NCBI GenBank assembly: GCA_902780985.1
Contig: CACZHN010000135.1
Span: 1-9,863, forward strand
Length of the DNA: 9,863 nt
Source: an uncultured Lachnospiraceae bacterium
GTDB taxonomy: Bacteria > Bacillota_A > Clostridia > Lachnospirales > Lachnospiraceae
Reading direction: 5' to 3'
This document shows positions 6,945-9,863 of the stretch, piece by piece (positions within the stretch are counted from its first letter, which is position 1; each line of letters starts with the position of its first letter). Made by a program: the position numbers and the translations under genes. Below the pieces are notes generated by a model, which saw nothing but the letters and a program-made list of their open reading frames with translations, made no database searches and was not told the DNA's origin.

Positions 6945-7922
6945 ATGGCAGACGTAAGACCTGCTGACATGGAGCGTATAACGACTCCGGAGTTGGCAAA
7001 GGCGTTCATAGACGAGCAGATCGCCGCTATGAAGGCTCAGATTGGGGACAAGAAGGTTCTTCTCGCACTTTCGGGCGGAGTAGACTCTTCGGTTGTAGCA
7101 GCACTTCTTATCAAGGCTGTAGGAAAGCAGCTGGTATGTGTGCATGTAAATCACGGATTACTTCGTAAGGGTGAGCCGGAGCAGGTTATCAAGGTGTTCA
7201 GAGATGAGTGGGACGCTAATCTCATCTATGTGGACGCAACAGACAGATTCCTTGATAAGCTCGAAGGTGTATCGGATCCCGAACAGAAGAGAAAGATAAT
7301 CGGTAAGGAATTCATAGATGTATTTGCTGAGGAAGCAGCAAAGCAGGACGGAATCGAATTCCTGGCACAGGGTACAATCTATCCTGATATTCTTGAGAGT
7401 GGTCCTGTAAAGTCTCATCACAATGTAGGCGGACTTCCTGAGGATCTTAACTTCGAACTTGTGGAGCCGATCAAGCTGCTCTTCAAGGATGAAGTTCGTG
7501 TAGTAGGTAAGGAACTGGGACTTCCTGACAACATGGTATACCGTCAGCCGTTCCCGGGACCGGGACTCGGAGTAAGATGTCCGGGAGCCATAACACGTGA
7601 GCGTCTCGCTGCAGTACGTGAGTCAGATGCTATCCTCCGTGAAGAGTTTGCAGCAGCAGGCCTTGAAGGAAAGGTATGGCAGTACTTCACAGTTGTTCCT
7701 GATTTCAAGTCAACAGGCGTAAGAGACGAGAAGAGAAGCTTTGACTGGCCTGTTATCATCCGTGCAGTCAACACAAGAGATGCCATGACAGCCACAGTAG
7801 AGCGTATCCCATACGACGTCCTGGACAGAATCGTAGTCCGCATCACCGGTGAAGTAGAAGGCGTAAACAGAGTCCTTTACGACCTCACCCCAAAGGGCCC
7901 GGCTACTATAGAATATGAATAA
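6945..7922 (+). CDS. guaA: GMP synthase ATP-pyrophosphatase subunit (no glutaminase domain)
   Basis: The enzyme adenylylates XMP and aminates it to GMP in purine synthesis. The PP-loop SGGVDSS is at residues 43-49, next to VLLALSGG. The lid and substrate region carries [21 protein letters not shown] (111-131) and the conserved [12 protein letters not shown] (141-152). The dimerisation domain has [13 protein letters not shown] (200-212) and a terminal GPATIEYE (318-325), the usual end of GuaA. Full GuaA proteins are about 510-525 residues with a class-I glutamine amidotransferase domain in front. Here the protein starts straight at the synthetase domain, as in the two-subunit enzymes of archaea, where a GuaAa partner supplies ammonia. 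No glutaminase gene lies in the window. The ATG at 6945 has GGAGG at 6932-6936, 8 bases upstream. TAATAA ends it. A second, complete guaA elsewhere or use of free ammonia are alternatives. Confidence 0.93.
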
Positions 7923-7945: not shown

Positions 7946-8107
7946 ATGGGGAAGAATGTAGTGGCATTGGGTGAGTTGCGTATATTTATCGAAGACTTTG
8001 GCGACAACATACATCGAGACGCCGGCATTTGCCGGTGTCTCGATGAGCTCTGCCATAGTCCCGATGAGCGTTTGGGTGAAAATGATGTGATTAAAGAATT
8101 ATTTTAG
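7946..8107 (+). CDS. small hypothetical protein, 53 residues
   Basis: This is an open frame of 53 codons with a near-perfect ribosome site, AGGAGGG at 7933-7939, six bases before the ATG. It starts 23 bases after the guaA stop and ends with TAG. The product starts MGKNVVALGELRIFIEDFGD and ends NDVIKELF. It is acidic overall and contains three cysteines around residues 29-36 (ICRCLDELC). I do not recognise a family. The middle of the gene is a 16-bp inverted repeat, so the peptide HRDAGICRCLDE is encoded by hairpin arms. That could mean a structured RNA, not a protein, is selected. The strong ribosome site and unbroken frame support translation. The frame being open by chance in such a short stretch cannot be excluded. 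Confidence 0.45.
   Translation: MGKNVVALGELRIFIEDFGDNIHRDAGICRCLDELCHSPDERLGENDVIKELF
8012..8045 (+). repeat. 16-bp inverted repeat (hairpin) without T-tract
   Basis: CATCGAGACGCCGGCA (8012-8027) pairs with TGCCGGTGTCTCGATG (8030-8045) with a single G-T wobble; the loop is effectively ATTT. The stem is long and GC-rich but no run of T follows, so it is not a standard intrinsic terminator. It may be a REP/palindrome-type element, an RNA processing or stabilising stem at the end of the guaA transcript, or a protein-binding dyad. Confidence 0.7.
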
Positions 8108-8108
8108 A

Positions 8109-8127
8109 TTGAAATATTCAATTTCAA
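8109..8127 (+). repeat. AT-rich inverted repeat upstream of the XRE promoter
   Basis: TTGAAAT (8109-8115) and ATTTCAA (8121-8127) are perfect inverted copies around a five-base centre ATTCA. The dyad sits directly before the predicted -35 box at 8129, a common place for an operator. It could be bound by the XRE protein encoded just downstream. It is too AT-rich to be a likely terminator, and the binding is an inference. Confidence 0.4.
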
Positions 8128-8128
8128 A

Positions 8129-8157
8129 TTGATGAAAATTAGTAGTTCTGTTAAAAT
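8129..8157 (+). promoter_or_regulatory. predicted sigma-A-type promoter for the XRE-GNAT genes
   Basis: TTGATG (8129-8134) and TAAAAT (8152-8157) are separated by exactly 17 bases. The first box matches four of six consensus positions and the second five of six. The leader to the XRE ATG at 8219 is about 55 bases and includes a weak dyad, GCCT (8175-8178) with AGGC (8186-8189), which may be an operator or a small leader hairpin. Confidence 0.55.
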
Positions 8158-8218
8158 ATTATTTGTGGTGAAATGCCTAAGATTCAGGCGTTGAGAGCAA
8201 ATAAGAAAGGTAAAAGTT

Positions 8219-8443
8219 ATGGCAATTCGTTATAACAAATTATGGAAATTACTGATTGATAAAGAAATGATGAAAAAAGATCTCAGAGATCAATCGGGAA
8301 TCACTACAAATGCGTTAGCTAAACTAGGGAAAAATGAACATGTTAGTACGCAGATTTTAGAGAAAATTTGCAGAACGTTGAATTGTAATATAGAGGACAT
8401 CTGTGAATTTGTTATTGATGAGGAGGGGAAGAATCAAAAATGA
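8219..8443 (+). CDS. XRE/Cro-type helix-turn-helix regulator (YozG-like)
   Basis: This is a 74-residue DNA-binding protein. The start MAIRYNKLWKLLIDKEMMKKDLR, then SGITTNALAKLGKNEHVSTQILEKICRTLNCNIEDI, is the standard small Cro/CI HTH pattern. Helices 2 and 3 fall at about residues 18-38 and the final helix pair runs to about residue 64. Proteins of this size are nearly a bare HTH domain and usually act as autorepressors or as regulators of the adjacent gene. AAAGG (8206-8210) lies 8 bases before the ATG. Its TGA overlaps the GNAT gene's ATG (ATGA), so the two are coupled. Codon use here is clearly more AT-rich than in guaA and the upstream genes, which fits acquisition by transfer. The operator may be one of the dyads at 8109-8127 or 8175-8189. 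Confidence 0.85.
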   Translation: MAIRYNKLWKLLIDKEMMKKDLRDQSGITTNALAKLGKNEHVSTQILEKICRTLNCNIEDICEFVIDEEGKNQK

Positions 8444-8988
8444 GATTTGGGCCTAAGGAGATAATAGATAAAAATGGGCGAAAGATAATTCTTAGAAATG
8501 CTGAAGTTGAGGATGCTGAAGCTCTTATAGAGTACCTAAAAGTTACGACAGGAGAAACACCTTTTTTGATACGTGAACCTGACGAGGTGACATTATCTTT
8601 GGAGCAGGAACAAAATTTTATTAAAGATAAAATAGATGCAACTAGAGAATTGATGCTGATTGCTACGATAGATGGTAATCATATAGGCAATTGTTCACTG
8701 ATGACTATCGCACCATATAAGCGGTATGCACACAGGTGTGATGTGGCAATAGCATTGTACCAAGAATATTGTGGATGTGGCATAGGAAAAATCATGTTGC
8801 AGACAGTGTTAAAGGTTGCAAAGAATGTCGGATATGAACAGGCTGAACTTGAAGTTATTTCAGATAATTATAAAGCAATTTCTCTTTATAAAGAACTGGG
8901 GTTTGAGAAGTGTGGACATTTCCCGAATAACATGAAATATGCGGATGGTAAATATGCGGATGCGGACTGGATGATGAAGAAATTATAA
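8440..8988 (+). CDS. GNAT-family N-acetyltransferase
   Basis: This is a 182-residue cytoplasmic acetyltransferase that uses acetyl-CoA. The opening KIILRNAEVEDAEALIEYL is the usual first beta strand and helix. Motif A runs CDVAIALYQEYCGCGIGKIML (100-120). The pyrophosphate loop CGCGIG (111-116) has cysteine in place of the common Q or R at its first position. Motif B follows as N143 with AISLYKELGFEKCG (146-159), which also contains the family's usual tyrosine (Y150). The substrate is not evident. RimJ/RimL-like or small-molecule acetylation are both possible, and a tRNA-acetylating toxin cannot be excluded given the coupled HTH gene. The start ATG at 8440 overlaps the XRE stop. AGGAGGGG at 8421-8428 is the ribosome site, somewhat far from the start. 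Codon use is AT-rich like the XRE gene. Confidence 0.88.
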   Translation: MRFGPKEIIDKNGRKIILRNAEVEDAEALIEYLKVTTGETPFLIREPDEVTLSLEQEQNFIKDKIDATRELMLIATIDGNHIGNCSLMTIAPYKRYAHRCDVAIALYQEYCGCGIGKIMLQTVLKVAKNVGYEQAELEVISDNYKAISLYKELGFEKCGHFPNNMKYADGKYADADWMMKKL

Positions 8989-9042
8989 TGAAAATGATTT
9001 GCAGAGTTTATTTTAAAAATGAATAATGAATTGAGGAACTAG

Positions 9043-9863
9043 ATGGACAGAAAAAAGATTATTATCATTGGTTGTTCCGGGAGCGGGAAAAGTACATTTG
9101 CAAGGAGACTTCATGACGTAACGGGATTACCAATATACCACTTAGATAATTTATTCTGGAAAGCAGATAGAACTCACATATCCAGAGATGAATTTGATGC
9201 GCGTTTGAACGAGTATATGCAGGGAGATCGTTGGATTATTGATGGGGACTATTCGAGAACTTATGAGATGAGAATTGCGGCGTGTGATACAGTCATCTTC
9301 TTAGACTATGGGGAAGAAGTATGCATGCAAGGAATCACTGAGCGGGTAGGAAAAGTTCGTGAAGACATGCCATGGACAGAAGACGAGTTGGACCCTGAAT
9401 TGGTGGAGATGGTTCAACAGTACGAAACACAGAATAAACCAAGGTTGCAGGAGCTCTTCCGAAAGTATCCGGAAAAAGAAGTTATAACATTCTATAATCG
9501 TGATGATGCCATGAAGTGGCTTATTAGTGAATATATGATTGTTCCGGTAGACGAAGATAACATCATTGAGGCTGCATGTATACATTCCATATCATGGCAG
9601 GAATCCCATCGTGCATTTTGCGACGAAGCATTTATCTTAAAGCATGATACGAAGGATTCAACGCTTGGATGGTTTGCTGTTGGTGATTATAAAAAACGTG
9701 CGAATGTAGTAGGTGGCCGGGAAACATCCAAACCATCGGATGTTCATAAGCATATGATGGCTTTGCTTAAGGAATACAACGCCAAGGAAAAAGTCACAGT
9801 AGAGGATATTATAGCTTTGCATGCTGAGTTTGAGTATATACATCCGTTTCAGGATGGAAACGG
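9043..9863 (+). CDS. composite ORF: P-loop NTPase + GNAT N-terminal fragment + Fic domain, 3' end outside window
   Basis: One uninterrupted frame of 273 codons runs off the right edge. Residues 1-160 form a FlaR/adenylate-kinase-like P-loop NTPase: Walker A GCSGSGKST (10-18), HLDNLFWK (33-40), DGDYSRT (67-73) and VIFLDY (84-89). From M165, MIVPVDEDNIIEAACIHSISWQESHRAFC looks like the start of a separate GNAT acetyltransferase, but it lasts only about 35 residues and has no CoA site. From about residue 205, GWFAVGDYKKRANVVGG and later IHPFQDGNG (266-274, catalytic H267) are Fic-domain sequence. Fic enzymes transfer AMP or related groups to target proteins. The HPFxDGNGR motif is cut by the window edge. 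GAGGA at 9033-9037 precedes the ATG by 5 bases. This may be a real chimeric gene, a decayed fusion of three genes, or an assembly join. The frame is intact in all three parts. Confidence 0.8.
   Translation, partial: MDRKKIIIIGCSGSGKSTFARRLHDVTGLPIYHLDNLFWKADRTHISRDEFDARLNEYMQGDRWIIDGDYSRTYEMRIAACDTVIFLDYGEEVCMQGITERVGKVREDMPWTEDELDPELVEMVQQYETQNKPRLQELFRKYPEKEVITFYNRDDAMKWLISEYMIVPVDEDNIIEAACIHSISWQESHRAFCDEAFILKHDTKDSTLGWFAVGDYKKRANVVGGRETSKPSDVHKHMMALLKEYNAKEKVTVEDIIALHAEFEYIHPFQDGN

Follow-up and report, generated by a model that had tools for sequence, protein, structure and literature searches.

The window, a stretch of 9,863 nucleotides from an uncultured Lachnospiraceae bacterium (contig CACZHN010000135.1), ends in a single open frame in which a P-loop NTPase and the beginning of a GNAT acetyltransferase run into the middle of a Fic domain. 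We consider it most likely that the join between the NTPase-GNAT part and the Fic part is a library or assembly chimera, produced during library making or metagenome assembly by a read that was itself chimeric or by a false join in the graph (probability about 0.6); genuine but dead recombination debris ranks second, and a functional three-part protein is unlikely. The three-part protein probably does not exist as such, and a database entry that presented it as a new toxin architecture would mislead. The useful residue of the analysis is the genuine NTPase-GNAT fusion from which the first part of the frame derives.

Composition of the open frame

The frame occupies positions 9043 to 9861 of the forward strand, encodes 273 amino acids and is still open at the window end. 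An earlier note on this DNA had described one frame running from an NTPase through a GNAT stub into Fic, and both the frame and all of its motifs were seen in the sequence, namely, GCSGSGKST of the P-loop, HPFQDGNG within a Fic stretch, and a GNAT-like stretch between the two. Residues 1 to 164 (9043 to 9534, forward strand) form a P-loop adenylate-kinase-like NTPase, the DNA of which is 94% and 91% identical to two stand-alone NTPase loci (L001 and L002), the likeness ending at 9535. The initial 39 residues of a GNAT domain follow (residues 165 to 203; 9535 to 9651, forward strand), delimited by the protein cluster P0001, the DNA of genome G240, and the probable start codon of the GNAT homologue L096. 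The remainder is the middle of a Fic domain (residues 204 to 273; 9652 to 9861, forward strand), which extends to HPFQDGN and is cut by the window end.

Residues 209 to 273 matched the Pfam Fic profile with 38.8 bits (cut-off, 24) over profile positions 20 to 81 of 93, and no GNAT profile was present among the 25 shown of the 26 Pfam families matching the window protein. Residues 4 to 160 scored 137.2 bits against the "DNA topology modulation protein" PRK08118 (NF005994), with which they share the same P-loop NTPase core. The equivalog cut-off, at 215 bits, is well above this score, and the NTPase part is thus a relative of PRK08118 for which membership is unsupported.

The NTPase-GNAT part as a natural fusion

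Residues 1 to 203 are the 5' part of a two-domain gene that encodes an adenylate-kinase-like NTPase and a GNAT acetyltransferase. Four protein clusters of 314 to 315 amino acids (P0001 to P0004) matched approximately these residues at 85 to 99%, with P0001 reaching 99% over residues 1 to 203, and the 39 residues from 165 to 203 correspond to the start of its GNAT half. Genome G240 contains an intact 315-amino-acid NTPase-GNAT gene, with DNA that is 92% identical to the window and in which only 3 bases differ in 9524 to 9648. The four clusters and G240 have the fusion point at M165, as in the window, and the window shares its 5' DNA with G240. However, they proceed to a full GNAT domain without Fic (P0001 matches four GNAT profiles), whereas the window continues with Fic from after residue 203. 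Judged from these sequences, NTPase-GNAT is an established natural fusion in the lineage; no published name was found for the proteins P0001 to P0004 and G240. The earlier view of all three families as ordinarily separate proteins consequently fails for NTPase and GNAT.

The first junction had been placed at M165 as the probable old start codon of a GNAT gene. In line with this, the probable start codon of the stand-alone GNAT homologue L096, an ATG located 6 bases behind GGAGGAG, aligns with M165, so that P0001, G240, and L096 all point to the same fusion site; a second in-frame ATG is found in L096 five codons upstream of the probable start. Lachnospira multipara (L001) and Lachnospiraceae bacterium KH1T2 (L002) carry stand-alone NTPases that are 95% and 96% identical in protein to residues 1 to 164 and have upstream genes in common with the window, but these proteins stop at 167 amino acids, without GNAT or Fic. 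As a guess, the NTPase-GNAT protein might carry out a two-step small-molecule modification by phosphoryl and acetyl transfer.

Members of the NTPase family were also found fused to other enzymes (P0016, P0020, P0031, P0033, P0034, P0048, P0052, P0053, P0065, P0067, and P0090). These fusions include a C-terminal pyrophosphatase-like part (PF00719 listed for P0016, P0033, and P0034), an N-terminal NUDIX domain (PF00293 listed for P0048, P0052, P0053, P0065, and P0067), and an N-terminal PF00144 domain (P0090).

The Fic part and its parents

The Fic piece matches HTH-Fic proteins (L003 and P0122; best PDB sequence match, 4x2e), mostly from rumen Lachnospiraceae, with up to 97% identity over residues 197 to 273, HPFQDGNG included, and with L003 as the 97% match. 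These proteins carry an N-terminal HTH, the inhibitory motif SNHIEG, which conforms to (S/T)xxxE(G/N), and the start of the Fic domain, and the window is without all three. SNHIEG is present in 105 of the 120 Fic relatives listed; inspected by eye, the 273 residues of the window protein contain no EG or EN pair and hence no (S/T)xxxE(G/N) motif. The window stops at HPFQDGNG, within the Fic motif HxFx(D/E)GNGRxxR, which is whole in 120/120 of the relatives listed. According to an excerpt of PMC3667792, the Fic core comprises helices alpha-2 to alpha-5, and in class II proteins the inhibitory helix with the motif (S/T)xxxE(G/N) precedes alpha-1. The Pfam Fic match begins at profile position 20 in the window versus position 2 in the parent L003, so that the window frame has lost the beginning of the domain and with it, by inference, some of the helices.

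A Fic protein of a different makeup, P0148 (320 amino acids, from a 1.5-kb contig), has approximately 129 unrelated residues instead of the HTH and inhibitory part. By eye, the substituted residues resemble a restriction-enzyme subunit.

The GNAT-Fic join is a singleton among the proteins and loci searched

Protein searches covered 5.8 billion proteins, finding relatives that share short words, and the matches listed were checked for motifs. With the whole query, none of the best 120 of 7034 homologues had motifs of both halves (the Fic motif was sought), and with query residues 165 to 273, none of the best 120 of 4795 homologues had P-loop or GNAT-stub motifs. Since the parts of a query contribute jointly to the score, a true second example should have come first in either protein list. 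At the DNA level, none of the best 80 of 588 confirmed loci, drawn from 84,980 genomes, matched both halves: 76 matched the Fic half and four matched the NTPase. No NTPase or GNAT relative was detected at any of the 76 Fic loci (684,511 bases), and no viral contig contained the 32-nt junction string. Genomes G001, G002, and G240 lacked a DNA match above 66% to the Fic piece of the window, while no P0001 relative was found in G003 or G004, and G005 has only a stand-alone NTPase, at 62%.

Thus, within the proteins and loci searched, the GNAT-Fic join is a singleton. The database check proposed in the earlier note returned no protein with the same domain order among the 240 homologues listed, and the three-part arrangement was equally absent from the 80 loci listed. 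None of the homologues listed carries the Fic extension, and it was the lack of such an extension in any genome, with homologues always ending near residue 165, that the note had said would point to misassembly or a dead fusion.

A functional three-part protein would consist of the NTPase, a GNAT-derived linker, and a Fic core minus its inhibitory helix, acting as a deregulated AMPylase or toxin. The frame is open and SNHIEG is missing, and an excerpt of PMC3667792 describes a Fic protein that is activated by truncation of its inhibitory helix. We nevertheless regard this possibility as very unlikely, because the start of the Fic domain is lost along with the inhibitor, because the GNAT part would retain only beta-1, alpha-1, and one short helix in the P0001 model, and because no second example exists among the relatives listed. 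The Fic residues remain close to those of the parents, with dN/dS values of 0.06 to 0.24 in five of six pairwise comparisons with loci and 0.03 in the sixth, but this is no evidence for a fused protein, since the selection predates the join. The GNAT stub differs from G240 by one synonymous and four non-synonymous changes, two of them within codon 203 at the join, which are too few for judging selection. If the join is real, Fic activity would be doubtful, because part of the domain is lost besides the inhibitory helix, while the NTPase part could fold, as its solo relatives suggest. Slimmer still is the chance that this is a real Lachnospiraceae gene, produced by short-homology recombination in an actively shuffled accessory locus, in which an NTPase tethered to a Fic core freed of its inhibitory helix represents a new deregulated AMPylase architecture. 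With defining parts of both GNAT and Fic lost and no second example among the relatives listed, the idea of a new toxin or signalling architecture found no backing; debris, which the earlier note had offered as the alternative, or misassembly fits better.

The two parents share 18 nt, and probably 20 to 21 nt, at the second junction

The window is identical to G240 at 9623 to 9648 and differs from it from 9649 onward, and it aligns with the Fic parents L003, L005, L007, and L010 from 9631 onward. The overlap, TTTATCTTAAAGCATGAT (18 nt; 9631 to 9648, forward strand), is thus an exact string common to the NTPase-GNAT parent G240 and the Fic parents, and when the G240 gene was compared with 78 loci, no exact match on the same strand was longer (median, 12). 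With a P0001-type parent, the shared string would be 20 to 21 nt long and would reach 9650 or 9651, because this nearer parent has HDT-D and Fic has HDT-K. The final residues common to both parents are FILKHDT (197 to 203), confirming the placement of the second junction near residues 199 to 206, and the measured 18-nt string bears out the proposal that the join went through short similarity.

From the matches of the G240 gene in unrelated DNA, we extrapolated that chance matches of at least 18 nt would number, roughly, 0.7 per 3-Mb genome and 226 per Gb, and those of at least 20 nt roughly 0.07 per 3-Mb genome and 25 per Gb. The string of 18 to 21 nt is probably common to the two parents by chance. 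The join deletes most of GNAT, together with the Fic inhibitory motif and domain start, and the frame stays open across it because the shared string has one and the same reading frame in both parents. The second junction lies at most 233 bases from the window end, a distance that a single read pair or merged read would cover.

Residues 1 to 203 thus come from an established NTPase-GNAT gene, which lies in an accessory stretch downstream of a guaA-like gene, and inside the shared string the sequence passes into an HTH-Fic gene that is unrelated to it, entering this gene in its middle. If the join arose outside the cell, as we favour on the inferred premise that the window stems from a metagenome, the two Lachnospiraceae genes would have been brought together by a chimeric read or by a graph error. 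The underlying genome would then most likely carry an ordinary 315-amino-acid NTPase-GNAT gene, and the cell would make an ordinary NTPase-GNAT protein. This origin is favoured by the length of the homology, by the finding that neither parent occurred alongside the other in the 6 genomes and 76 loci checked, and by the position near the window end. An excerpt of PMC3100316 on simulated short-read metagenome assemblies describes the number of between-species chimeric contigs as "noticeable" even in simple communities. Against a chimera, we counted that the window may be an excerpt rather than a whole contig and that real short-homology rearrangements occur in the same locus of sequenced genomes (the S66-peptidase scars of L001 and G240, described below). 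In addition, the smallest k used by common assemblers equals or exceeds a length of 18 to 21 nt, and a pure graph error is for this reason not certain.

A mosaic accessory stretch upstream of the join

GC content drops from approximately 0.50 to 0.33 near 8000 to 8100. From 8071 onward, the window is 91 to 97% identical to L001 (8330 to 9535) and L002 (8071 to 8993 and 9022 to 9535, all in window coordinates), whereas before 8071 matches of at least 290 bases to the L001 and L002 genomes and G240 show only 64 to 68% identity, some shorter pieces being higher. The GC drop and the identity jump at 8071 together indicate a horizontally shared accessory stretch behind the guaA-like gene, which spans 8071 to 9630. 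It contains a small HTH regulator, HTH_26 (8219 to 8443, forward strand), a complete separate GNAT gene common to L001 and L002 (8440 to 8988, forward strand), and the relic of an LD-carboxypeptidase (S66) gene (8994 to 9042, forward strand), of which an internal piece survives, joined to the final 15 bases, and which ends at the NTPase start.

The S66 relic of L001 (5949 to 6000) likewise joins an internal piece to the last 15 bases, with approximately 4 to 6 nt of homology by eye, as in the window. The L001 copy was matched by blastn and the window copy by eye, and the intact gene was identified by Pfam in L002 (5161 to 6000). In G240 (L103), a 5' piece of 60 to 66 bases of the S66 peptidase gene is joined to its last bases through approximately 6 nt of homology (by eye). 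These relics are natural short-homology deletions. A further S66 gene copy is found in L103, and the relics ahead of the NTPase are cut differently each time.

Such relics in the window, L001, and G240 give the NTPase a mosaic neighbourhood and lend some weight to short-homology recombination in a living cell, in which a Fic gene that had newly arrived recombined with the NTPase-GNAT gene. The product would be non-functional, consisting of an NTPase, the 39 residues of the GNAT stub, and a Fic tail without its head; the NTPase part could still work, given the solo copies in L001 and L002. Exchange within the gene is also suggested by an allele switch near the domain boundary (9523 to 9535), as the window and G240 differ by 46 mismatches in 9054 to 9523 and by 3 in 9524 to 9648, and by P0002, in which the NTPase is 95 to 96% like those of P0003 and G240 while the GNAT is nearer that of P0004 (86.5% versus 79%). 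Moreover, the stand-alone NTPases L001, L002, and P0005 nest amid fused relatives. A parallel is P0007 (297 amino acids; a cluster of 16 member sequences), another one-off composite, in which the NTPase-GNAT gene is cut within GNAT, as in the window, and fused in frame to a RelB-like antitoxin; its join, however, lies further into GNAT, and its partner is not Fic. In L002, that RelB gene is located directly behind the stand-alone NTPase.

Because the frame is open, the neighbourhood is mosaic, and P0007 is composite, we hold a real origin of this kind to be possible, if clearly the less probable account. The natural scars use only approximately 4 to 6 nt, whereas 18 to 21 nt shared between unrelated genes of one genome would be rare, the two parents did not co-occur in any of the 6 genomes checked or at any of the 76 Fic loci, and the join sits at the window end. 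We therefore retain the chimera as the preferred reading. Short-homology deletions visibly reshuffle the accessory genes of these bacteria, and real and artefactual fusions are hard to separate without reads; homology length at the join (18 to 21 nt here versus approximately 4 to 6 nt in natural scars) offers a simple screening idea for fusions.

Other genes were also noted. Positions 6945 to 7922 of the window encode the ATP-pyrophosphatase part of GMP synthase alone (325 amino acids; GMP_synt_C), and the families listed for it include no glutaminase domain. In L126 (G197), the gene behind guaA resembles what we take to be an Abi_2 abortive-infection protein, and in L103 (G240), a 293-amino-acid gene, presumably RhuM/Fic-DOC-like (HPFADGCKR), lies immediately upstream of the intact NTPase-GNAT fusion. 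Finally, a 53-amino-acid frame behind guaA in the window (7946 to 8107) begins with MGKNVVALGEL, which presumably resembles the N-terminus of a fructokinase; this frame could be one more relic of a deletion.
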